Shown here piece by piece: positions 10,007 through 22,286 of a DNA stretch of 22,312 nucleotides. The stretch spans positions 1 through 22,312 of the IMG/VR virus record IMGVR_UViG_3300032282_004875. The stretch is one strand, 5' to 3'. Positions within the stretch are counted from its first letter, which is position 1. Every line of letters begins with the position of its first letter. Made by a program: the position numbers and the translations under genes. Source of the DNA: a virus. The notes beneath the pieces are model-generated. The model searched no databases and was not told the origin of the DNA. It was given only the letters and a program-made list of their open reading frames with translations.

Positions 10007-10752
10007 TACAAGACTTCCCCCAACTGAATAGAAACAGTGTATACATCGGTCGGTACGCCTGACACAATCTTACGCTGTGCTGTGGCCGTAGGTGGTGTTA
10101 TCGGAAAATCGGATCCAGTCACAGGAATTGCTACAATCTGCGCTTCATACCACGCCCTGACATTGTTCCACCCATTAACATCAGTATCACCTTCGATATC
10201 TTTTATCCTATATACAACTAGCGGACCGCTAATGTAATGAGTCCCAGAAGAAGTTAGCTGCAGAGCCGGACCTTCGCCATATGCATTTATTGGCTTTTTT
10301 AAGGTCAATGTCGAAGTACCTATTGTTACCGTTCCGTAGTCAGGAAGAAGTTCATCTTCTTCCAGTGCAGCTAACTGTATTAAATCAAGTGATTGATTAG
10401 CATCAACCAATTCAAAGCTAACATCAAGCCACACGCCGGCTTGATTGGCCGTCGGGGCTACAGAAAACCAGCAATCAACGCTAGTCCACGTTTGCAGTGC
10501 TGCGCCATCCATGGAAAGCGTAACAACAGCACCAACTACACCCGTGTCCGCAGGACTATCCTCCACTATTTTAGCATCACGCCAATCATTATATATTTGC
10601 TGCAAATCTAACCAATCTGCCCCACTCATCAACCCAGTAATCGCCCACTTGCGAGCTGTTTGACCGCGCCTTACATCTTGCTCATCATAACCGAATGGCT
10701 GATCTTTCAGGTATAAATCACTGAACGTAGTACCATCAATAGTTACTGCCAT
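10006..10752 (-). CDS. Distal-tail-like protein
   Basis: This 248-residue protein starts MAVTIDGTTFSDLYLKDQPF and is coupled to the tape measure gene by a TAATG overlap and to the hub gene by another. The first half (residues 20-125) is strand-rich with several Trp residues (WAITGL, DWLDLQ, WFSVAP, GVWLDVSF), consistent with a beta-sandwich of the type found in distal tail proteins that join tube and hub. The second half (residues 140-248) has another set of strands. The sequence alone does not prove the family. Position between tape measure and hub is the main support, and I infer a distal-tail role. Confidence 0.6.
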   Translation of the reverse strand: MAVTIDGTTFSDLYLKDQPFGYDEQDVRRGQTARKWAITGLMSGADWLDLQQIYNDWRDAKIVEDSPADTGVVGAVVTLSMDGAALQTWTSVDCWFSVAPTANQAGVWLDVSFELVDANQSLDLIQLAALEEDELLPDYGTVTIGTSTLTLKKPINAYGEGPALQLTSSGTHYISGPLVVYRIKDIEGDTDVNGWNNVRAWYEAQIVAIPVTGSDFPITPPTATAQRKIVSGVPTDVYTVSIQLGEVL

Positions 10753-13700
10753 TACAGAAGCCGATTAAAGGCGTCAAGATAAGCTGCATTACCAGTATTC
10801 CTGACTTTTACATCTACGTTCCAATTTTTATCGACAAGATTATTGACGGCCTCAGCCAGCTTACCTATTTGAGCGGCTTGATGTGATTGAACCCTTCTAC
10901 TGTCTTGCTCGTTGCGACTTGAAGCAATCGACTGGGCCTTGAAATAAGCCATCAGCATTGAAGTAGTGGAATTCATTCCGCCCGCCCTTGCTATATAGCC
11001 ATTGGCACTTGTACGGCTAGCCTTCACTGAGCCACCTGCACTCTTCAGTTTATCCATGATGTGAGCAGGGATCACCGTACCGGTCGCTGGGGGGCGCCAC
11101 AGGCTGTTCTTGGGCCTATTGATGTCGCTAAGGGTGCCAGCGTTGCTCAGGAAGCCTTCCTGACCTAATTCGTTAACACGATAAGTGGTTCCAGCAGACA
11201 CCGGCCCACCAGCCCACCGGCCCTGTGTATTACTAATAGTAATCGTACCGTTAAGGTTGATATTATTTGGGATATTGTTTATCACATCTGCGAACCTTTG
11301 ACCAGCCTGAGCGGCTGTCTCGGCACTATTGGCCAGATTCTCCATGTTACCAGCAGCCGTTCCCGTATCGACAGAAACTTGATTCATGTCTTTTGCAACT
11401 GTTGGACCACCGACCCCAAAGTCGGAAGACCCAGGTTTTACATTTGGAATCGATTGGATGTTTATACCTAATCTTTTCGCTTCATCGGCAGCGCTGGAAA
11501 AGGCTTGCTTTGCTGTCTGTAAACCACCAAACCCTTCGTTTGCGCCCGCAAGTGCATCTTTTGCCGATTGAATCCCTGCTCTGTATATTTCAAGCTCGTC
11601 GGTGCTGAAGCCGGCCGCCTTGGCTTGCTCGTATTGTGCAGTTGCAGTATTTAGTTGCGCTTGGGCTATGTTAACGGTTTCCAGAGCTACAGCATAATTT
11701 GCCGCAGAAGAGGCCCAGGAATTCATTTGCGCGGCCGGACCGCCCATGGGATCACCCATGGTGAATCCCTGAGTTTCAAGTCCAGCGATTGCCGTATTAA
11801 AGTCTCCATTGGCCTTTCGAGCAGCCTCCTGAATTAGCTGCTGATTTGGTGGCTGCACCTTTGTGCCAAACACAATCTGGGCGCCGGCTCCGGCTGCAAA
11901 ATTCTGCCCAGTCTGCTGTAATTTATCTATAAATGCTTGTCGCTGATTCTCAGCAGAACTTGCGCCATCTAAGCCTTTTATGTACGAACTTAAAGGCTTA
12001 ATCGCCCCAGAGAATGCGTTACTGAGTTTCGAGGCAGACTTTTCGCCTGCTGTTCCGATATTGCTTATGACAGCAACACCTTTTACCATTTTAGCAGTTA
12101 TATTACCACCAGCCTGGCTAGCAGCATTCCCAATATTTGTTACAGAGGATGCTGCTCCGTTTGACGTTGGCGTTATATTACCTAACGCTGCTGAGCTTTG
12201 CTGGGCGCCCTTAGTCGTTGCAGCACTTGCCTTGTCTGCCGCCTGCAACCTTTTGAATTCAGCTCCAGTAACTTCTTCTACCTTCCCAGTTAAATTATCA
12301 TAATACAAAACAGCTTCTTTGGCGGGAACTGAAATCTTTTTGCCTGCACCATTTGAATACGTTGATGCAGCAGTCGATATCTTACCAATAACTTCGCCAA
12401 TTCGCTTGACTCCTTGGGCAGTCGATCCGCCAAGCTCGCCTAATTGTTTTTCTGAATTTAAAACATTGGCTACGTAATCCTGGAATGATTTTTTACCGTC
12501 GTCGAGCTTTTTCTTGTCGCCTTCGCTGAATAATTTAGCGAAACTGTCGCCGCCGACCTTCAAGTCCTTCAGTTCAATGCCAGCCAATTTGGCCAGTGCT
12601 GCCGCCGCAATGGTCATCGCGTCAGCCGCTTGCTTCATTGTATCCGCTAATTTATCCGCTTCTTTTCTGGTATCAACGAAATCCTTCTTCGACTTCAGTA
12701 ACGCATCTGCAGATGATGTATCCAGCTTTGGTGTAAAGTCAGGGAATTGTTCACGTACTTTTGCCAATGCCGCAGTAAAGTCTTGTTCTATTTGTATTGC
12801 ATTCTGACGAATCTCTTCTGGCGCAAAGAACTCAGGTTTGCCCAGTTTCAGGTCTTGTAGACCGCTACGCGCAGCATCAAGTTCTTCTTTGAACTTCCTA
12901 CCAGCTTCTATAATCTTAGCTGCACCTTCCCTGGTCGACACCAGATATTCTTGCGCTGCTTGCTTGATATACTCAGCAGCCTGGGCGGAGAATTTTGGAT
13001 TTTCGGCGGCAAGATCCCTTGCTGCCTGTACCTTGTTCAGGAATGTTTGGCTGGCAGTATTGATATCTGCTCCGATCTCGGATGCCAGTTTTTGCGATTC
13101 GCGGAATGATCCCGGATTCAGGTTGATATCAAGCTGTGCTTGGTTTAATTGATTTTGTATTTTCGTCGTCTCCAGTTTGATTTCCCATTTCGTCTTGCTG
13201 ATGAACTCCAGGATACTCTTCAGTCGGTTAACCTTATTAATATCCTGATCATAATTAGTTCGACCTAATTTTGACGTAAGATCGTAAGTCTTCGCGCTGT
13301 CTTCGAGGCCTTCAATAATATCTTTTAATTGACCAATACTGGATGTAGCCTGTTTTGCTGGATCGTAAATTCTGCCAGTTGCTTTAGCAAATGCTTTCAA
13401 CTGAGCTTCAGTTGGCGCTAATACGCCATTTAAGTTTTGTATGCCGACCTTCAATGCATATGCAGTATTATTTAAGTCATTGTACTTTGCTACCTGTGCT
13501 TGAGTTGGGGTGGGAAGTTGTAGTTTTAATTTATTTAATTCCTTTATTCTTTTGTCTAAAAGGACTATTTCTTGTATGGTTGCACGCTGACCAATTGTAT
13601 CACCCCTCGCGCCTTGAGCTGTCGCCTTGGCTTGTAATTCTGCGGATTTTTTACCGGCTGCCGCTAGTTCATTTTGAACAGCAATTGCCTTACGTATTTC

Positions 13701-16700
13701 CGCTGGCATTCCTTTCATCGCATCATTTACTCCCTTTTGATCTGTTTCCAGTCCCTTAATTTGATCACGAAGTGCCTGAACCGAATCCCGAGCTATGACG
13801 AAATTTTTAGCAATCTTAGCATCGGTGGCAGCATTAGGCGCAACACCTTTCTTTCTATCCGCATCGCGGGCGACTTGTAGATTTTTAAGCTCTTCAATTA
13901 AGGTTTTTGTTTTAGTGGTTTCGGCCTTTGCTGAATTACCCAATGCTTTTATTCTATTATTGAGCTCCCTAAGTTTCACATCAGCATCGCTACCAGCTCC
14001 AGCAATAGCAATTATTCCAGCCACTGTTGCACCAATAACTGCACCTGGAATAGCTCCTATGCCCAGGATCGTTGCCCCCAAGGCGGCACCTGCTATGGCA
14101 CCGGCTGCCAGAGCGGTACCTAACTTGAGAGCATTGCTTATAAATACCCCAATTCCTGTAGCAGCAGTGTCGAGTGCCGGTGCGAATATAGATCCCAATG
14201 TGTCGGCAACATCTTTAACAATATATGACAAACGTAGCCATGCCAATGCAAACCCAGAAATTGGCTTCTCACCTGATTGAGTAGTCCCCTTCAATTCTTT
14301 CAGTGCTGTGTCAAGTACTTTTATACGATTTGCGCTTTCCGATGTTACTTGCGCTGTGACAGCATTTGCATCATTGTAAGCCCTTGTAGCAATAGCCGTG
14401 CCAATCAAAATGATCTCAAGGGGCCCAATAGATGATAGCAGTGCCTTAGCGCCCAAAGCAGCACCAGAGAAAGCATTCCTCAGAGCTACGCCTATGCCAG
14501 ACGCTCCCGATTTAATCAGTCCAAGTCCTTTGTTGAACGAAGGAAATAGCCCATTCGTTGTTTTGATATCGCCGCTCAAAGTACGATAAGCAGAACTTAG
14601 GTCGGTGACTGTACCTCCAGCCGCGCCCTGCCGCTGGCGTAAATCAGCTAAATCACTTTCCAGTTGAGGTATCTGCTGCCTCAGATCAATGATTTCCCTG
14701 AGTTGGGCAGAGCTGCGGCGGCTAGTAGCTCCAATATCAGTCAGGCTGGCCAGCCTGCTAGAAGCAGATTTTAGCGCTTTTTCAGCATTATTTACCTGCG
14801 TTGTTAAATTAGCAAAATTAGTTTCCGCATTATTTAATGCAACTTTTGCGAAATTCAACTGGTCATTTAGCGTAGCGCCGACACGCGTAGCTCTTGATTG
14901 AGCGCTAACCAAATCAGATTCGGCTGCCGCTTGAGAAGTTAAAGCCTGAACAGCTAAGCTCCGTTCAGAATTCAGGTCGGCCAACTCCTGTTGCTGCTTT
15001 CTTAAGACTGCAGTTGAATCAATCTGCCCAGACTGAGCTGGGGCAAGCCTGAAAGATGATTGAGCCTGGATTAAGCGCCTGGTCGCTTCTATTTCTTTTT
15101 CTTTTAAAACAATCTTTTTGTCAGCGTCAGCTATGCCGGAGTTGTTGGCTATTTTTTCTGCCAACAATCTGTCCTTTGTCTGTTTTGATAGTTGCTGTTC
15201 CGCTGCGCCTTGCTTGCGAACTTGATCCAAACGAGCGGACAAGCTAGTGTCATCAGCCGCTGCCGCAGGAGCACCACCTGCACCCTGAAGTGCTCGATAT
15301 TCCAGTTGAGTTTCGCGTAACCTGCCTTGCAATTTGGTCAGACGCTTTTCTTCTTTTTCTGTAAACGAAGATACAGGCGCAGCCAGACTTGCTTGAGTTT
15401 TTGCTATTTCTGACTCAAGTCCCTTGATTTTTTGCTGCAACTGCCCAGCCTTTGCAACACTAGCGTCATCTACTATGTCCTGACCGGATACTATGGCTTG
15501 AGCCGGAAGTCCAGATATCAGATCGTCGATAACCTTTCCGGTTTTTGCAACCGAACCCTGCAGTAGTTGCGAGGCACTGCTTACATCTGTTGCAGCTATT
15601 TTCGCGCCCAGGGAAAGAATCTTGAATGCTTCATCTGGGTTGCTACCGGCAAATGCCTTTAATTCCGTCTCAATAGATCGAATATCGCGAAGGAACTGAT
15701 TGCCTCCAAAATTGGTAGCGTTAACCAGTCCGGGCCTGTTAGCTAAATCATCCGTTAAGTCATTATATTGATTTATTAATCGCTTCAGGGCGTCACTTGT
15801 GTTGTCTATATTTTTTACTGCATTTACGTCAATTGGCGTAAATACCTCGCCGCCGGCGGCCTGCTGTGCGACTTTTGGCAGATTTGCGTATTCCTTTCTG
15901 GCATCTTGCAGTAAGCCAGTCTGTTCGGTCAATTGTTGGCGCAGTATTTTAGTGGGATCATCCGATTTTTTCTTTTGAAGCGCGCTAACTTCTGACACAT
16001 ACTGGCGATACCTGGCAGTGACATTGTCGAGTGTTTTACTGGTATCAGCCTGTATGCGCTTGTTTGCGTTTTCCTCTTGCTTAACTCTGGTGTTTATGAT
16101 ATTGTTATCTGGTTTTGCGGTGTCTATTATGCTATTGGTTGCCAGTGGCGTAGTTAATCTTTGTGATAATTTTTCTATCTTACCACGATAATCGTCAACT
16201 CCAGGGCTTGCGTCCTTCCATGCCTTCTTCAGGCCTTGAATGAATTTATTTTGTACAACTAGGTTGTCGGCCAGACTTCCTTTTAAGTTACTTAATGGAT
16301 TCAGGAATCTGCCAATTATACTGAGGCCAATCAGTTCCAGGACGCCTGGGATACTTGCCAGCGCACTGATTAATGGCGTAACAGCGCTTGCAAGTTGCAG
16401 GAATCCCTCCACCAATGCCGTCAGTGCATTTAAAACACGCAGCACAGCCTCGCCAACCGAATTAAATATACTGATAATGTCCTTGGTAGCACGAATTTCT
16501 AGTATCCTGGTGACAAAGTCAGTTATAACTGCCTGGGCACGCAGGAATGTAGCAACAAGCGGCTCAGCAAACTTTGCAAACTTCTCCAGGTTGAGTTGAT
16601 TCAGGTTGGCAATATTTGCCTCAACTTGCGAAATAATGGCGCTGCCATTCTGTAGTGCATCAACAGCGGTATTTGCTGTCGGCCCAAGCTTACCGAACAG

Positions 16701-17867
16701 CAAGCTGGCTTTACTCAGTTGCGGTAAGATTTTGATTAATACATCAGTTGTAATCTTACCCTGTTTGACCAGACCTTCAAGCGAAGATATTGGCTGTTCG
16801 CCTTTTTGAGCAAGAGTTTCTAGTTCCTTGCCAAGTTCTGCTGTCTTGCCGCCAGTTGCCTTCAGAGCCTCCGCAGAAGCAAATAATGCATTAGCAAAAT
16901 CAGTCTTGAACGCAGGATCAGCTTCTGATATCTGCTGTGTTAATTCTTCAGCTTGTAACTTGCCTTTTGCAAATGCTTGAATAACACCGTTCAGCACACG
17001 TCGTGATTTGTCCGCATTTAAACCAAATGCAGCAAAACGGCTAGACAGTGATTCAACAATGCTGGATACGTCGCCCAGATTGCCCCCACTGTTAATGATA
17101 ACAGGCGATAACTGCTTGAAGCCTTCGCGGACTGTCTGGATACTTACACCAAGGCCAAGCGCTATGCTCTGGGCATCCGATAGCGCCTTTGTGGCACCAG
17201 AAGCGCCTTGCCCGATAGCCTGGAACGACAATCCAAATGACTGCAGTTCAGCTAACGCACCGGTCACAGCCTTGATCGGTGCAACTAGCTGCGTAGCAAT
17301 AATGTTTAAACTTTGGAAGATGTTTACAATATCAGAAACGCCACGACCAAGGGCAGCTATGCCACCCAGGTTAAAGCTGGCCCCGATTTTATCGAGTGCT
17401 GTACCACCAGCAGCCTCCAGGTTGCGAAGCTCCTGTTGCAAGCTTTTTACCCTTGATTCAGCAGAAAGCCATTCCGGACTTAATTTAGCACTGAAAACAA
17501 CGCTGCGATTTGTCTTGTCGATTTCTTGGTTGAATTTTGCAATTTGATCCCTAGCCGAACGGGCTTGGTTTAATTGCTGCCTTACACTGGTTACACTGCC
17601 AGGCTGGGTTCTTGTTGCATTTTTAAACGCCCTTTCATATTTATCTAGCTCAGTCCTGGCTTCTTTTACAGTTGTTGCTAGAGTCTTTGCCCCGTCCTTT
17701 GACTCCAGCCTTAATTCAACCTTTTTTGTTACAGTTCCACCCAGTGCTGCGTTAGCTGCATCGCCAGCACGTTTCGACCCGGCAATATATGCCTCAAACA
17801 GCCTCTTGAAATCATCCGCTGCAGATTGCGTATCAAACTGTACGGAAAAATCAAGATTATTGGCCAT
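10752..17867 (-). CDS. Tape measure protein
   Basis: This 2371-residue protein is the largest in the window. It sets tail length and leaves the tube at DNA injection. Residues about 205-390 match the N-terminal tape measure domain (LGVSIQTVREGFKQLSPVI, FAKGKLQAEELTQQ, ADPAFKTDFANALFASAEAL, LVKQGKITTDVL). A hydrophobic stretch lies at about 470-525. A Gly/Ala-rich membrane-like segment lies at about 1236-1292 (AAGAIAGAALGATILGIGAI), as needed for the membrane channel. Long coiled-coil regions rich in Q, K, E and A fill most of the rest. The C-terminal part has RWAGGPVSAGTTYRVNELGQ near 2216 and GTVIPAHIMDKL near 2262, a signature I know from cyanophage tape measures. No lysozyme or peptidase motif was noticed. 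ATG start at 17867; no Shine-Dalgarno sequence. The leader 17868-17918 holds no clear promoter. Confidence 0.93.
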   Translation of the reverse strand: MANNLDFSVQFDTQSAADDFKRLFEAYIAGSKRAGDAANAALGGTVTKKVELRLESKDGAKTLATTVKEARTELDKYERAFKNATRTQPGSVTSVRQQLNQARSARDQIAKFNQEIDKTNRSVVFSAKLSPEWLSAESRVKSLQQELRNLEAAGGTALDKIGASFNLGGIAALGRGVSDIVNIFQSLNIIATQLVAPIKAVTGALAELQSFGLSFQAIGQGASGATKALSDAQSIALGLGVSIQTVREGFKQLSPVIINSGGNLGDVSSIVESLSSRFAAFGLNADKSRRVLNGVIQAFAKGKLQAEELTQQISEADPAFKTDFANALFASAEALKATGGKTAELGKELETLAQKGEQPISSLEGLVKQGKITTDVLIKILPQLSKASLLFGKLGPTANTAVDALQNGSAIISQVEANIANLNQLNLEKFAKFAEPLVATFLRAQAVITDFVTRILEIRATKDIISIFNSVGEAVLRVLNALTALVEGFLQLASAVTPLISALASIPGVLELIGLSIIGRFLNPLSNLKGSLADNLVVQNKFIQGLKKAWKDASPGVDDYRGKIEKLSQRLTTPLATNSIIDTAKPDNNIINTRVKQEENANKRIQADTSKTLDNVTARYRQYVSEVSALQKKKSDDPTKILRQQLTEQTGLLQDARKEYANLPKVAQQAAGGEVFTPIDVNAVKNIDNTSDALKRLINQYNDLTDDLANRPGLVNATNFGGNQFLRDIRSIETELKAFAGSNPDEAFKILSLGAKIAATDVSSASQLLQGSVAKTGKVIDDLISGLPAQAIVSGQDIVDDASVAKAGQLQQKIKGLESEIAKTQASLAAPVSSFTEKEEKRLTKLQGRLRETQLEYRALQGAGGAPAAAADDTSLSARLDQVRKQGAAEQQLSKQTKDRLLAEKIANNSGIADADKKIVLKEKEIEATRRLIQAQSSFRLAPAQSGQIDSTAVLRKQQQELADLNSERSLAVQALTSQAAAESDLVSAQSRATRVGATLNDQLNFAKVALNNAETNFANLTTQVNNAEKALKSASSRLASLTDIGATSRRSSAQLREIIDLRQQIPQLESDLADLRQRQGAAGGTVTDLSSAYRTLSGDIKTTNGLFPSFNKGLGLIKSGASGIGVALRNAFSGAALGAKALLSSIGPLEIILIGTAIATRAYNDANAVTAQVTSESANRIKVLDTALKELKGTTQSGEKPISGFALAWLRLSYIVKDVADTLGSIFAPALDTAATGIGVFISNALKLGTALAAGAIAGAALGATILGIGAIPGAVIGATVAGIIAIAGAGSDADVKLRELNNRIKALGNSAKAETTKTKTLIEELKNLQVARDADRKKGVAPNAATDAKIAKNFVIARDSVQALRDQIKGLETDQKGVNDAMKGMPAEIRKAIAVQNELAAAGKKSAELQAKATAQGARGDTIGQRATIQEIVLLDKRIKELNKLKLQLPTPTQAQVAKYNDLNNTAYALKVGIQNLNGVLAPTEAQLKAFAKATGRIYDPAKQATSSIGQLKDIIEGLEDSAKTYDLTSKLGRTNYDQDINKVNRLKSILEFISKTKWEIKLETTKIQNQLNQAQLDINLNPGSFRESQKLASEIGADINTASQTFLNKVQAARDLAAENPKFSAQAAEYIKQAAQEYLVSTREGAAKIIEAGRKFKEELDAARSGLQDLKLGKPEFFAPEEIRQNAIQIEQDFTAALAKVREQFPDFTPKLDTSSADALLKSKKDFVDTRKEADKLADTMKQAADAMTIAAAALAKLAGIELKDLKVGGDSFAKLFSEGDKKKLDDGKKSFQDYVANVLNSEKQLGELGGSTAQGVKRIGEVIGKISTAASTYSNGAGKKISVPAKEAVLYYDNLTGKVEEVTGAEFKRLQAADKASAATTKGAQQSSAALGNITPTSNGAASSVTNIGNAASQAGGNITAKMVKGVAVISNIGTAGEKSASKLSNAFSGAIKPLSSYIKGLDGASSAENQRQAFIDKLQQTGQNFAAGAGAQIVFGTKVQPPNQQLIQEAARKANGDFNTAIAGLETQGFTMGDPMGGPAAQMNSWASSAANYAVALETVNIAQAQLNTATAQYEQAKAAGFSTDELEIYRAGIQSAKDALAGANEGFGGLQTAKQAFSSAADEAKRLGINIQSIPNVKPGSSDFGVGGPTVAKDMNQVSVDTGTAAGNMENLANSAETAAQAGQRFADVINNIPNNINLNGTITISNTQGRWAGGPVSAGTTYRVNELGQEGFLSNAGTLSDINRPKNSLWRPPATGTVIPAHIMDKLKSAGGSVKASRTSANGYIARAGGMNSTTSMLMAYFKAQSIASSRNEQDSRRVQSHQAAQIGKLAEAVNNLVDKNWNVDVKVRNTGNAAYLDAFNRLL

Positions 17868-17918
17868 TTACAGTAATCTTTAACATCATCTGGTTCTAGA
17901 ATTCCAAATACAGACCAC

Positions 17919-17944
17919 AAAAAAGGGGCCCCTGTGGGCCCCCG
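17919..17944 (-). terminator. Strong intrinsic terminator between tail tube and tape measure genes
   Basis: On the minus strand a run of G and C gives a 7-bp all-GC stem (GGGGCCC with GGGCCCC) around a 3-5 base loop. Six T residues (17924-17919) follow directly. It lies 35 bases past the tail tube stop and 51 bases before the tape measure ATG. It would lower tape measure expression relative to the tube protein, as virion stoichiometry requires. Confidence 0.93.
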
Positions 17945-17978
17945 TAAGCGCTTTCAGGCCGGTTATCAGGCGTTGGCG

Positions 17979-18578
17979 TCAGTTGGCGTCAATGTCGATG
18001 ACATACCCGCCGTAGCCGTTGACAGTGGCTTCCCAGGACACGATAGAGCCAGCCTCGATCGATTCCGTGTAACCACTAAGAGTACCATAGCCATAGATGG
18101 CCTCGACGGTACCCGTGGGGCCCAGGCGGCCAAACTTCACGCGCAGCGCATCCTTCACGGTGTTCTGCTCAGTCAGACGCAGGATCTGGTAGCCGGCATC
18201 TTTGAAGTCAGCCACGCCAGCCAGCGAGATGCTCCAAGTCTTGGAAGTAGGAAGGGTCAGGTTGAAACCACCGGTCGTGGAATCATAAGTAACCACTTCT
18301 TCGGAGTTGGTATCAGTCTGCAGGGCAGCATTGGTCAGGCCATACAGCTTCACCGGGGTGTCAGCGCCATCCATGCTAAAGGCAGCGCCCTCAACAGTAA
18401 ACACACCAGCCGAATAGCTGACAGTATCAGTAGCGTCGACAACAGCGGTCGTATCGATGAAGTTGCCAGAGTTAGCGCCAATAGCACCAGTCACACCAGT
18501 GAAAGACGTATCCACATCAGCCGCGTTAAGCGGAATGATATAAACGTCGTAACCAAACGCAGTCGAAATGTTTGCCAT
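17979..18578 (-). CDS. Major tail tube protein
   Basis: I choose the ATG at 18578, giving 199 residues starting MANISTAFGYDVYIIPLNAA. The frame can be extended to a GTG at 18632, but that would translate through a leader hairpin. The product is strand-rich, with SWSIS-type strand pairs (TWSISLAGVADFKDAGYQIL) and the segment DALRVKFGRLGPTGTVEAIY, which fits tail tube proteins of the siphovirus type. Next to the tape measure gene this is the expected place. G+C content is high (35 of 60 bases in a line I counted), as for the capsid gene, supporting very high expression. An intrinsic terminator follows and a 126-base leader with two hairpins precedes it, so it is effectively a single-gene unit or the strongest gene of a two-gene unit. 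Confidence 0.85.
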   Translation of the reverse strand: MANISTAFGYDVYIIPLNAADVDTSFTGVTGAIGANSGNFIDTTAVVDATDTVSYSAGVFTVEGAAFSMDGADTPVKLYGLTNAALQTDTNSEEVVTYDSTTGGFNLTLPTSKTWSISLAGVADFKDAGYQILRLTEQNTVKDALRVKFGRLGPTGTVEAIYGYGTLSGYTESIEAGSIVSWEATVNGYGGYVIDIDAN

Positions 18579-18704
18579 GTTGGAGCTAGGTAGGAGTCCT
18601 AGTGCGAGACGACAAGGATTGATAGCAGGCACCTACCTGCTATCCCTAGGTTTCCAATTAAAAATTTATTAGGCTTCCAAGTAAGATCCGGTTATCTATT
18701 GTTT
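18579..18704 (-). promoter_or_regulatory. Tail tube gene leader with two hairpins
   Basis: This is 126 noncoding bases. A perfect 9-bp inverted repeat, GATAGCAGG / CCTGCTATC with a 6-base loop, lies at 18621-18644. CTAGG / CCTAG with a 7-base loop lies at 18586-18602, ending 7 bases before the ATG. No T-run follows either, so neither is a terminator. An AT-rich block (AATAAATTTTTAATTGG, minus, about 18672-18656) could be a promoter box. The layout suggests transcript stabilisation or control of translation of an abundant protein. Confidence 0.45.
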
Positions 18705-19139
18705 TCATATCAAAATTGTTGAATTTTCTGGTATCAATATCTGTGTCTGCACCAGGGTTGTCAGCTCATTTGGCGTTGGCACAGTCTGAACAGATGTTGA
18801 CCCATTAAACATTTCTATCATTCGTTTTGCCGCATTATTCATTGTCACACCATCGGCCCCAGGCCATACAATTAGAAATACTTGATATGTGATCAACGCT
18901 TCTGGTGCTTCCGTCAGATAATCCCTTCGTGTGATGATACCAACATCATGAATAACAACCTCTAGGCCACTTTGTGACTGCAACTCGGGTGACACTTGTC
19001 CAGGTGTTACAATACTTATTGAATCAATCGGCGTTGTATTCCCAGCAAATACATACTGGCCAACATAAGACATAAACGTCGTATCGCCAAACAGTGCATC
19101 GTAAATATCGTCCGGCGAACTAACCCTAAGTTGTGTCAC
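18705..19139 (-). CDS. Tail terminator/completion candidate
   Basis: This 144-residue protein starts at GTG 19139; an in-frame TAG four codons upstream excludes a longer form. The order is helix (SPDDIYDALFG), strands, then EVVIHDVGIITRRDYLTEAP and YQVFLIVWPGADGVTMNNAA, ending in a helix and strand. This alpha/beta plan with a central strand pair and C-terminal helix resembles the small tail terminator proteins that cap the tube. Position directly before the tail tube gene supports that. I have no single diagnostic motif. It is divergent from the HNH gene. Confidence 0.55.
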   Translation of the reverse strand: MTQLRVSSPDDIYDALFGDTTFMSYVGQYVFAGNTTPIDSISIVTPGQVSPELQSQSGLEVVIHDVGIITRRDYLTEAPEALITYQVFLIVWPGADGVTMNNAAKRMIEMFNGSTSVQTVPTPNELTTLVQTQILIPENSTILI

Positions 19140-19177
19140 AATTGGTCGCTAATACTTGCCTAGGATGCCCAGTTTCG

Positions 19178-19194
19178 GGAAACCTATGGCAGGC
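19178..19194 (+). repeat. Copy 2 of the 17-bp intergenic repeat (GGAAACCTATGGCAGGC)
   Basis: It matches the copy at 607-591 (minus) at 16 of 17 positions. It lies in the divergent intergenic region and reads toward the HNH gene, with a 14-bp palindrome starting 1 base after its end. Confidence 0.5.
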
Positions 19195-19208
19195 ATTTGA
19201 TATCAAAT
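19195..19208. promoter_or_regulatory. 14-bp perfect palindrome, possible operator
   Basis: ATTTGATATCAAAT is fully self-complementary over 14 bases. It sits between the divergent start codons of the HNH and tail terminator genes, which is where a repressor or activator site would be placed. No regulator gene is visible in the window. Confidence 0.35.
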
Positions 19209-19254
19209 CATGCTGTATTCGATACTCTCGAAAACACCCAATCGTAGTACGCAG

Positions 19255-19260
19255 TATAAT
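19255..19260 (+). promoter_or_regulatory. Consensus -10 box for the HNH gene
   Basis: TATAAT lies 24 bases before the GTG start of the HNH gene. The -35 position (AAACAC) is poor. The HNH gene is the only one on this strand and is divergent from its neighbour, so it needs its own promoter. The rest of 19140-19284 holds the repeat and palindrome listed here and no ORF. Confidence 0.4.
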
Positions 19261-19284
19261 TACCACCTAACATAATCAATAATC

Positions 19285-19668
19285 GTGCCAGAAAGCTGCT
19301 TCCAGGCTTTTCAGCATCCATACGATTACTTGATTGCCATGCAGGCTTTAACGCACAAAGAAGCTAAACATATGTGGCGTAAGGCGATCAAAGATAAGTG
19401 GAATAATTGTTGCGCATATTGTGGAAAACCTCCAATTGATGACACCAGCTTGACCCTGGATCATGTCAAGGCTAAATCAAAAGGTGGCGAAGACTTGACG
19501 GCCAACATAGTGCCGGCTGACAGGGGATGCAATGCATCCAAAGGCTCAGAATATTGGCGCGATTGGTTCCGCAACCAGTCATTCTATAGCATACAAAAAG
19601 AACACAGGATCGAGCACTGGCTGAACACCGGTCAGGTGCTGGATGAATCCCATTTCCCAGAAAATTAA
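19285..19668 (+). CDS. HNH endonuclease, free-standing homing type
   Basis: This 127-residue nuclease is the only plus-strand gene. Residues 11-40 (HPYDYLIAMQALTHKEAKHM) are the N-terminal segment typical of a cyanophage and cyanobacterial HNH group, so I prefer the GTG at 19285 over the ATG at 19339, which would remove part of it. Motifs: Cys43-x2-Cys46, Asp59-His60, Asn74 and Asn83 (HNH core), and KGSEYWRDWF at 86-95. The second zinc knuckle has Asp79 and Cys82 (ADRGC) where many relatives have two Cys. The enzyme cuts DNA with a metal ion. Its orientation against the structural genes, and its position between a chaperone and a tail gene, fit a mobile homing endonuclease gene inserted in the late region. 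A role in packaging is less likely because terminase-linked HNH genes lie next to terminase. Confidence 0.88.
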   Translation: MPESCFQAFQHPYDYLIAMQALTHKEAKHMWRKAIKDKWNNCCAYCGKPPIDDTSLTLDHVKAKSKGGEDLTANIVPADRGCNASKGSEYWRDWFRNQSFYSIQKEHRIEHWLNTGQVLDESHFPEN

Positions 19669-19685
19669 TAAAAACTTAATCTTTA

Positions 19686-20887
19686 CTAGTAAATATCAAT
19701 ATAGCAATTCTCAATAGCCACTACCTTACTCCTTATTTCCGGTATCTTCGCTTTTATTGCCTTACCACACGGTGATTCCATGTGCATTATCCTGTTTGAT
19801 GCAGCCTCCGTCGCAATTAACATGCATTTACACATTGAATCCGATACCTGTGGTGCCAACAGTAATGCATCATCTGATACATAACATAATATATCAGGTA
19901 ACTTACTGCTCTTTGCATTCTGCCCCGCTTCCGCCAGCTCCTTATAGACAAATAATGCCCACGATGGAAACTTCCTTTGACGTATTAACTCAACCGCTGT
20001 AATGCCATATATCCCATCAATTTGATCCTTCCCTTCGTTCGATGGGTAACAAAAGAATTCATCAATCGTAAATGGTTTCTTTCTCGATTTGCGGTCACGA
20101 TTTATCTCAGCTTGTTGCGCCGCTAACATCGCTATCGGTGCTTCATTTTCATGTAACTCCCGATACCTGAGGCGATTTGTACTGATAACCGCTTGTATCA
20201 CATATTCATACGGTAACTCCCAATAATTTTCATAACAAAACTCCCTGTCACCAGGATATGCCCTCTTTAATAACCAATAATATTCATCAAATGGTATTAT
20301 TCTGCCCTTGTCGCCCTGCTGCGCGACTTTTTTTCTACTTTCTCGACCTCAAGCTCGTCAGACTCTTCCTCATCCACTTTCTCAGCAGCTATTAACCGCT
20401 CAGTTGATCGCATCTCCTCATCATTATATAACTCTACTAAACCATTGATGATATCCGGATGTAAATCCAAAACATCACTTACCCCCAAATTGGGATCAAT
20501 TCGATATTGCACCATACATAATGCTTTTAAAATCTGCTCCTTTGATTGTACATTCGCTAAATGACTTAATAAATCGTTGAAATCATCAAAATATTCAGCC
20601 TCAATTTCACTGCATTCCTCATCACCCCTGAGCTGACCAGATACAATCCCAATTACTTTCTGATATGCATCATTTAATTCCATCTTACGTGATGCAGCTA
20701 CCTTACGCGATAACCCAATCACACGAATACTCGTCTCATCTACACCCAATGCCTGCTGCACAAATGCTTTCTCACCACTACTTAAATATCCACGACGCTC
20801 AATTGCAATCTGCCCCGATTCCTCACTACCGACATACTCCGTAATCGGCTTACATTTCGGCTGTACAACAAATGGTAATCCGCTCAT
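19686..20887 (-). CDS. Tail assembly chaperone long form made by -1 frameshift (G-T fusion)
   Basis: Translation begins at ATG 20887, shifts -1 at A AAA AAG (20333-20327), and continues in the second frame to TAG 19688-19686. That gives 187 + 213 = 400 residues. The downstream frame is open from 20348, well upstream of the GTG at 20201. The residues before that GTG are protein-like (RIIPFDEYYWLLKRAYPGDR, then EFCYENYWELPYEY), which shows the second frame is translated by fusion rather than by independent initiation. The T part is globular, with ENEAPIAMLAAQQAEINRDR and several Cys. In lambda-like phages the fusion G-T binds the tape measure and tail tube during assembly and is absent from the virion. 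The gene does not lie between tail tube and tape measure as usual but upstream of both. Confidence 0.82.
20297..20887 (-). CDS. Tail assembly chaperone short form (G)
   Basis: This is the unshifted product: 196 residues starting MSGLPFVVQPKCKPITEYVG, ending in TAA nine codons past the slip site. Residues 25-110 include ERRGYLSSGEKAFVQQALGV and a helical segment rich in charged residues. Residues 165-196 are very acidic then basic (EEESDELEVEKVEKKSRSR), a flexible hinge at the frameshift point. As in other tail chaperones, most ribosomes are expected to make this form and a few percent the long one. It is followed by no terminator. Start context has no Shine-Dalgarno sequence. Confidence 0.82.
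   Translation of the reverse strand: MSGLPFVVQPKCKPITEYVGSEESGQIAIERRGYLSSGEKAFVQQALGVDETSIRVIGLSRKVAASRKMELNDAYQKVIGIVSGQLRGDEECSEIEAEYFDDFNDLLSHLANVQSKEQILKALCMVQYRIDPNLGVSDVLDLHPDIINGLVELYNDEEMRSTERLIAAEKVDEEESDELEVEKVEKKSRSRATRAE
20327..20333 (-). other. Programmed -1 ribosomal frameshift site, A AAA AAG
   Basis: In the zero frame the codons are GTA GAA AAA AAG TCG; the heptamer A AAA AAG is the strongest known bacterial -1 slippery sequence, also used in dnaX. After the slip the next codon is GTC and the second frame is open to 19686. GAGG (20350-20347) lies 13 bases upstream and may act as an internal Shine-Dalgarno stimulator. A 5-bp stem, GTCGC with GCGAC, follows at once (20327-20310); its spacing is too short for a classic stimulator. 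Confidence 0.88.
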
Positions 20888-20927
20888 CGAATTTACTTAC
20901 TCAACATTCGTATGGTACCATTTATAT

Positions 20928-21434
20928 TCATATAATATCCGATACCGCTTGTAAAATGATATCCCCATAATTTATTTGTGGTAATCCATTCGTCCCATCC
21001 AATACAGCACGTATCCATGGCCTCGGTGGTATATATACCTTCTCCACATTCCTTGATCCATATGGTACAATATACCCCCCATAATATATTAATGATGCAT
21101 ACGGTACATCATACCTGATACTGATGTCCGATCCATTGACTAATACATTACCAGACGATAACAAATTACCCGTTAAATATATATCATCTAATCCATCATT
21201 CGTACTCCATATACTTGATGTTATCGCTAATGCTAGGTTACGCTCAATCGTATCCGATATCTGTAATATACTACGTATCATCGCCTTATCAATATTACGT
21301 GTTATATTCTTGATATATCCCTCCGATTTATTAACTAAATTCAATCGCGGATTGTAAACCGCCTGCGTACTGAAATTACTCCCTAACTTGGAACTAAACC
21401 CTATGTCACTTAACTTTATATCAAACTTTGCCAT
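20928..21434 (-). CDS. HK97 gp10-like tail completion candidate
   Basis: I choose ATG 21434, giving 168 residues starting MAKFDIKLSDIGF, one base after the TGA of the upstream gene. Nine further in-frame codons upstream would overlap that gene. The middle is helical (NIDKAMIRSILQISDTIERN). The segment SIRYDVPYASLIYYGGYIVP and then IPPRPWIRAVLDGT is the Tyr-aromatic, Pro-Arg-Pro pattern of HK97 gp10-like proteins, which join head and tail. I infer that role at moderate confidence. Coding-strand bases are strongly G-rich over C, as in the neighbouring genes to its right. Confidence 0.6.
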   Translation of the reverse strand: MAKFDIKLSDIGFSSKLGSNFSTQAVYNPRLNLVNKSEGYIKNITRNIDKAMIRSILQISDTIERNLALAITSSIWSTNDGLDDIYLTGNLLSSGNVLVNGSDISIRYDVPYASLIYYGGYIVPYGSRNVEKVYIPPRPWIRAVLDGTNGLPQINYGDIILQAVSDII

Positions 21435-21435
21435 G

Positions 21436-21948
21436 TCATGATGATAAATAATCACCACCACTGATGATAATCGGTATCCCCTTTATCTCACTGATGATCG
21501 TCTCGTCAATACCCTGTGATCCATATACCCCCGTTGATGTAATTACCTTACAACTTAATATATTAATCGTATCACCAAACTTTACCCTTAATGTTACCCC
21601 ACTCGTTAACCACTCCGGTCTGCTCGTAATATTCGTTAAAACATTAACTACATCAACACCTAAATTAAAATTTGAATCAACCTCCGCATATCCTAATACA
21701 TACCCTCGATATATAAACGTCTGCCCACTATACCCTGGCATTACCCTCGGATTATTTGATATATTCTTCGCTCCACTGTCCGTACCACCTGATTGCGCTC
21801 TCTTTAAAAATAAACTTAAATAATAATTACTCGCTGGTGTACTACTCGAAACACTTAATCGACCATTCGTTACCTCAATCTGTGAACCTAATGTGCTCGT
21901 TATTATCCCACTCGCATTCGCATATGCCCCTAATGGTGAATTACTCAT
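21436..21948 (-). CDS. Small structural protein of unknown function, perhaps head-tail connector
   Basis: This 170-residue protein is beta-rich, with MSNSPLGAYANASGIITSTL at the start and VTLRVKFGDTINILSCKVIT near residue 130. It overlaps the upstream gene by 4 bases (ATGA), so the two are coupled. No motif I can name. Its place between a zinc-ribbon protein and a gp10-like protein suggests a head-closure or connector protein, by synteny only. Very rich in Ser, Thr, Asn, Ile and Val, and without Trp except one at about 115. Confidence 0.6.
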   Translation of the reverse strand: MSNSPLGAYANASGIITSTLGSQIEVTNGRLSVSSSTPASNYYLSLFLKRAQSGGTDSGAKNISNNPRVMPGYSGQTFIYRGYVLGYAEVDSNFNLGVDVVNVLTNITSRPEWLTSGVTLRVKFGDTINILSCKVITSTGVYGSQGIDETIISEIKGIPIIISGGDYLSS

Positions 21949-22286
21949 CCTAAATCCCCCTCACGACAAAATCGACATGACTCAATCCCATTAACCACAT
22001 ACGCCGCATACTCACTGTTGATCGGTCGCTTACATCCACATCCCTTACACATTACTAACGTGATCTGTGACTCCTTCACAAATCTGATTACCTCGTTACT
22101 AGAATCACTTAACTCTAAATGCTCTCTCATATCCCCCCACCATACACACCATTCATTGGCCCGTTGCTCTATGGTTCCAGTTTTTTCTAAAAATTTTACG
22201 GGGGGATTGCCAAGATGTGACAATGCCAGAAACGGGGTGGGGGTACCCCTTGCCTCCGGCAAGCTGCCGCCTTTTCTCGCCGTCAT
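21945..22286 (-). CDS. Small zinc-ribbon protein
   Basis: This 113-residue protein ends in a C-terminal zinc-ribbon-like pair: Cys-x2-Cys (MCKGCGCKRP, about 79-84) and Cys-x2-Cys (ESCRFCREGD, about 103-108), 20-odd residues apart. The N-terminal 35 residues (MTARKGGSLPEARGTPTPFL) are encoded by GC-rich palindromic DNA and look unlike the rest. The middle part has two Trp (WCVWWGDM) and a helix. The ATG at 22286 follows directly after an in-frame TAA, so no longer form is possible. A DNA- or protein-binding role is likely; a link to head assembly is inferred from position only. Confidence 0.65.
   Translation of the reverse strand: MTARKGGSLPEARGTPTPFLALSHLGNPPVKFLEKTGTIEQRANEWCVWWGDMREHLELSDSSNEVIRFVKESQITLVMCKGCGCKRPINSEYAAYVVNGIESCRFCREGDLG
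22240..22263. repeat. Two abutting GC-rich palindromes
   Basis: GGGGTACCCC (22240-22249) is a perfect 10-bp palindrome. It shares its last C with CTTGCC-TCC-GGCAAG (22249-22263), a 6-bp stem with a 3-base loop. Both lie inside the N-terminal codons of the zinc-ribbon gene. The pair resembles short dispersed palindromic elements of bacterial genomes; only one copy is seen here. Confidence 0.5.

Follow-up and report, generated by a model that had tools for sequence, protein, structure and literature searches.

A 22.3-kb virus contig, analysed here at its full length of 22,312 nucleotides and referred to as the window, carries its late genes on the minus strand, among them two overlapping reading frames, G and T, that very probably encode a tail assembly chaperone pair of the lambda G/GT type, the longer product of which would arise by a -1 ribosomal slip on the heptamer A_AAA_AAG. 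We consider the finding to be right and its interpretation well supported. The phenomenon is a familiar one, and the gains lie in the corrected annotation of a cyanobacterial phage family and in a collection of natural slip-site variants.

The G/T pair within the tail module

The features discussed below, in window coordinates, are as follows.

20928-21461, minus strand: neck or tail-completion protein (HK97 gp10-like); phrog_5 ("tail completion or Neck1") is hit by the S-CBS2 homologue at E 1e-8
20297-20887, minus strand: G frame, 196 aa, the short product, a putative tail assembly chaperone; open reading frame with relatives in 70 distinct junctions, S-CBS2 and the S-CRES phages
20347-20350, minus strand: GAGG, a proposed stimulator, unsupported
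20297-20348, minus strand: overlap of both open frames, 52 nt
20327-20333, minus strand: slippery heptamer A_AAA_AAG, in phase (GAA AAA AAG); from the sequence, 70/70 junctions and a shuffle control
20310-20327, minus strand: 5-bp stem GUCGC/GCGAC, a proposed stimulator, unsupported
19686-20327, minus strand: T domain, 213 aa, in the -1 frame; open reading frame, phrog_34388 at E 2.5e-30, residues 12-42 conserved
20199-20201, minus strand: GTG, the first possible T-frame start codon; not conserved, probably unused
19285-19668, plus strand: HNH endonuclease, after the T frame
18705-19139, minus strand: putative tail terminator, 144 aa; assigned from its place in the gene order, S-CBS2 homologue called structural
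17979-18632, minus strand: major tail tube protein; Pfam Phage_tail_2 at E 5e-7, phrog_38654 at E 1e-80
10752-17867, minus strand: tape measure protein, 2371 aa; Pfam TMP_3 at E 9e-16

Read along the minus strand, the genes begin with two unknown proteins of 113 and 170 aa and the 177-aa neck-like protein, followed by the G/T pair, and then, past the HNH gene on the opposite strand, by the putative terminator, the tube protein and the tape measure protein, beyond which lie more tail proteins, the scaffold and the major capsid protein. The order neck, G/T, terminator, tube and tape measure was found at every locus, within the reach of the contigs and of our homology searches, and it places the pair among the tail morphogenesis genes, on the upstream side of the tape measure gene. 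We note that, on this strand, the tail genes (10752-22286) are followed downstream by the capsid and scaffold genes (1-2504), an apparent rotation of the usual head-before-tail order.

Because the gap between the end of the tube gene (17979) and the start of the tape measure gene (17867) is just 111 nt, the G/T pair is the sole visible chaperone candidate in the tail module. The initial annotation had read the two frames as a tail chaperone pair, and this identity is upheld by context, by the published virion proteome of a relative and by mechanism, not by homology to a named chaperone family. Comparison of both frames with tail chaperone profiles, which the same annotation had put forward as a check, gave no match: neither G nor T matched the named tail chaperone families of Pfam, PHROGs or NCBIfam in sequence, and we found no sequence similarity to lambda G/T or HK97 gp13. 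A Pfam match of G to GWD1_pHisD (E 0.03) fell below the cutoff and was discarded, and bacterial genomes searched with the T alignment yielded no confirmed relative.

The G model (pLDDT 82) consists mainly of helices, a long one of which reaches the slip site, and the T model has a helical start and a beta-rich end (pLDDT 79, pTM 0.52). Searches against solved structures gave no convincing match for either model (Z <7 for G, <5 for T), and channel-like helical overlaps with solved structures were read as common helical arrangements, the pTM of the T model being only 0.52. Among viral predicted structures, Foldseek returned F4YCJ6 (181 aa) for G and C7F4B1 (177 aa) for T, which by length and identity fit S-CBS2 gp015 and P-SS2 gp065, respectively; G and T respectively also matched close or adjacent accessions (A0A346A5Z9/Z8 and A0A510E8E6/E8J5), which may be further G/T pairs. 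Several named tail chaperones appear among the Foldseek matches, in weak rows with E > 0.4 only.

In the S-CBS2 record, gp013, 014, 018, 020, 023 and 024 are called structural and gp015/gp016 "hypothetical". The published virion proteome of Cyanophage P-SS2 lists ORFs 061-063 and 066-069 with peptides and does not list 064/065 (PMC2784084, Table 2). As negative evidence, the omission of 064/065 lends support to products that may, like chaperones, leave before the virion is completed.

The best-surviving alternative, which we nevertheless consider improbable, is that the frameshift is real and its products serve some other role in morphogenesis, such as neck or head completion. The pair adjoins the neck gene, precedes the terminator and is not beside the tape measure gene, its P-SS2 counterpart and the tape measure gene of that phage are ~18 kb apart, and homology to known chaperones was not detected. 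Set against this are the 111-nt gap, which makes the pair the only visible candidate, the wide conservation of the -1 G/GT arrangement in the tail chaperones of long-tailed phages (PMC5009743), and the fact that the published P-SS2 virion list does not include the products (PMC2784084). Given its upstream position and the lack of sequence similarity to known chaperones, we class the pair as G/GT-type by arrangement, conservation and context, and not by common descent.

Slip site and second reading frame

The T frame is open from 20348 in the -1 phase relative to G, and a slip at A_AAA_AAG (20333-20327) would join 187 and 213 residues into a 400-aa fusion; the first ATG, GTG or TTG of T is the GTG at 20201, 42 codons past the slip site. 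The 196-aa frame, the 52-nt overlap, the -1 phase, the heptamer, this GTG and the 400-aa fusion had all been described in the initial annotation, and every coordinate proved right. Calculated for the window alone, A_AAA_AAG falls inside the overlap in 0.4% of permutations of the G codons and any X_XXY_YYZ motif does so in 10%, and one of the three heptamers observed in the family occurs there in 8.8% of synonymous-codon shuffles, which makes the case from the window alone suggestive.

Searching with G and with T yielded 70 distinct G/T junctions, that of the window among them, from IMG/VR contigs, S-CBS2, S-CRES1 and S-CRES3. In all 70, which are kin sequences and so not 70 independent events, the -1 phase is kept and the overlap contains a slippery heptamer in phase (A_AAA_AAG in 47, G_GGA_AAG in 21 and G_GGA_AAA in 2), as compared to 9.0/70 expected from synonymous shuffles of each G gene (sd 2.8, maximum 19, 2000 shuffles). 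Outside the overlaps, the same G genes contain a single such heptamer in 11,411 codon positions. At the level of sequence, this comparison with shuffles is decisive for the slip site, and the case for a frameshift, as judged in relatives, looks close to settled. The prediction that relatives would keep heptamer and phase was borne out, with 0/70 junctions retaining both frames after loss of an in-phase slippery heptamer. A cleaner argument than the 70/70 count is given by three motif switches: the heptamer type changed three times on the maximum-likelihood T tree, at least two of these changes being forced by well-supported branches, and the phase was kept. The exchange of one slippery motif for another, with the phase unchanged, implies that it is slipping that would have been preserved, and not the encoded residues.

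The distance from the start of the heptamer to the end of the G stop codon ranges from 10 to 91 nt among the relatives, and is 127 nt in P-SS2, a distant relative (T 24-27% identical) that carries G_GGA_AAG. This variable distance could tune the slip frequency. A literature search turned up no paper on a frameshift in S-CBS2, and neither cyanophages nor Synechococcus are mentioned in the PRFect paper.

That G and T are instead two separate proteins, the second self-started at GTG 20201 or at another internal codon, is very improbable in our estimation. This is how the GenBank records of S-CBS2, S-CRES1, S-CRES3 and P-SS2 present the pair, with the second gene annotated separately and given a downstream start. 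However, T has no conserved start, as any column before residue 43 holds a start codon in at most 9/70 relatives, and 45/70 lack one throughout the stretch from the heptamer to the conserved LPY block. The 42 residues before GTG 20201 are, furthermore, among the most conserved: residues 12-42 are conserved among relatives, with F13, W18, L20, K21, G26, F30 and Y42 present in nearly all of them. A separate start would also give no reason for the 70/70 in-phase heptamers. The earlier view that independent initiation of T is unlikely is thus confirmed by the missing start column and the conserved upstream residues, and so is the accompanying warning that naive annotation splits the pair, as S-CBS2 gp015/gp016, S-CRES1 gp72/73 and P-SS2 gp064/gp065 are all entered as separate genes of which the second lacks its beginning.

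With T read as the -1 extension of G, phrog_34388, which matches T from residue 44 onward only, appears as a family for which this coverage suggests construction from truncated genes, the internal-start annotation having cost it about 43 conserved N-terminal residues. The same reading offers a function and correct gene boundaries for phrog_34388, which is listed as unknown, and for the "hypothetical" pairs of S-CBS2 and P-SS2. In addition, the natural swap between A_AAA_AAG and G_GGA_AAG, together with the variable position of the G stop, constitutes a ready series for studying what determines slip frequency on cyanobacterial ribosomes.

The window does have a homopolymer of seven A (20334-20328), on which slippage during transcription might produce the fusion in place of a ribosomal slip. 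We consider this very improbable, as 23 relatives have no long A run and carry, in the same phase, G_GGA_AAG or G_GGA_AAA; homopolymers of only seven bases are, moreover, not known to slip well.

For a ribosomal slip, a GAGG upstream and a 5-bp stem downstream of the heptamer had been proposed as stimulators, and neither of these proposals holds. The stem pairs 20327-20323 with 20314-20310, takes in the last base of the heptamer and so leaves no spacer; its folding z is -1.8 over the first 30 nt past the heptamer and an unremarkable value of about -0.2 over 50 nt, and the nearest relative (L001) lacks it. The GAGG (20350-20347) lies 13 nt 5' of the heptamer. Shine-Dalgarno-like 4-nt matches 5-15 nt upstream are found in 44/70 relatives as compared to 34 by synonymous shuffle (maximum 43, 500 shuffles), a slight family-wide excess that does not extend to matches of at least 5 nt (16 vs 16 among the 70). 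The commonest spacing of such matches in relatives is 7, against 12-13 in the window, and the window GAGG, at a spacing not common to relatives, is not supported as a stimulator. In Escherichia coli dnaX, an upstream Shine-Dalgarno sequence and a strong downstream stem accompany the slip site, whereas neither is convincing at the window site.

Comparison with known systems and proposed mechanism

The heptamer of the window, A_AAA_AAG, is the same as that of dnaX (PMC5009743), and the lambda G/T junction carries G_GGA_AAG, as do 21/70 relatives and P-SS2. The window pair resembles lambda gpG/gpGT in its predicted -1 slip, close to the end of G, into a T frame that overlaps it, and in its location upstream of the tape measure gene. 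The lambda products are reported not to be in virions (PMC5009743), and those of P-SS2 are not listed in its published virion proteome (PMC2784084). It differs from lambda in the size of its G and T parts (196/213 aa vs 140/144 aa), in the lack of detectable sequence similarity, and in gene order, which in lambda is U-V-G-T-H, whereas the window pair precedes both terminator and tube. HK97 gp13/gp14 is similarly a -1 frameshifted short/long pair in a tail operon; there, however, the order is terminator, tube, gp13/14 and tape measure, while the window pair lies upstream of terminator and tube, and its G has no sequence similarity to gp13. The position between the tube and tape measure genes, which is customary and not defining, is not the one that the window pair occupies.

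The pairs of S-CBS2 (gp015/gp016), S-CRES1-3 and P-SS2 (gp064/gp065) are homologous to that of the window, with the same phase, a slippery heptamer and the same neighbours, including the antisense HNH gene, but are annotated as two unlinked genes, mostly "hypothetical". In P-SS2, the tube gene (gp076, 37% identical to the window tube) and the tape measure gene are found ~18 kb downstream of the pair. In S-CBS2 and S-CRES1, unlike in the window, the heptamer abuts the G stop codon. We observe, more widely, that the G stop directly follows the heptamer in 18/70 relatives and comes one codon later in 9 more (L026 8537-8546, L027, L024, L091 and others).

The short protein of lambda forms a coat on the tape measure protein, and it is the rare fusion that brings in the tube subunit (PMC5009743). 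We infer the slipping itself, its frequency and the binding partners, and propose the following scheme for the window pair. The majority of ribosomes would terminate at 20297 and release the 196-aa short protein, and a minority would slip back by one base on A_AAA_AAG, with two lysine tRNAs re-pairing on AAA AAA, and read on in the second frame to give the 400-aa fusion. On the model of lambda, the tape measure protein would be coated by numerous copies of the short form, the tube subunit would be recruited through the T part of the less frequent fusion, and both forms would depart before the tail is completed.

Antisense HNH gene and tape measure length

The antisense HNH gene follows the T frame at 70/70 distinct loci, and in P-SS2 it lies unannotated between gp065 and gp066 (L029 4686-4994). 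Its D-H pair and C-x-x-C motif are invariant (71/71). For a homing gene this constancy is unusual and, as far as sequence can tell, suggests a function that may have been kept. Taken further, and rather unlikely as a whole, is the idea that the frameshifted tail chaperones of cyanobacterial siphoviruses form a lineage of their own, without sequence kin among known chaperones, which has shifted to a place before terminator and tube and is fixed next to an antisense HNH gene kept by all members. This gene would not be a passing homing gene, the gene itself, its persistence or its antisense transcript being functionally tied to tail-gene expression.

Finally, the tape measure protein of the window (10752-17867) has 2371 aa, as compared to 956 aa in S-CBS2 and 1431 aa in S-CRES1 for the annotated genes. 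From this length an unusually long tail is predicted, of roughly 350 nm by our own estimate at 1.5 Å per residue.
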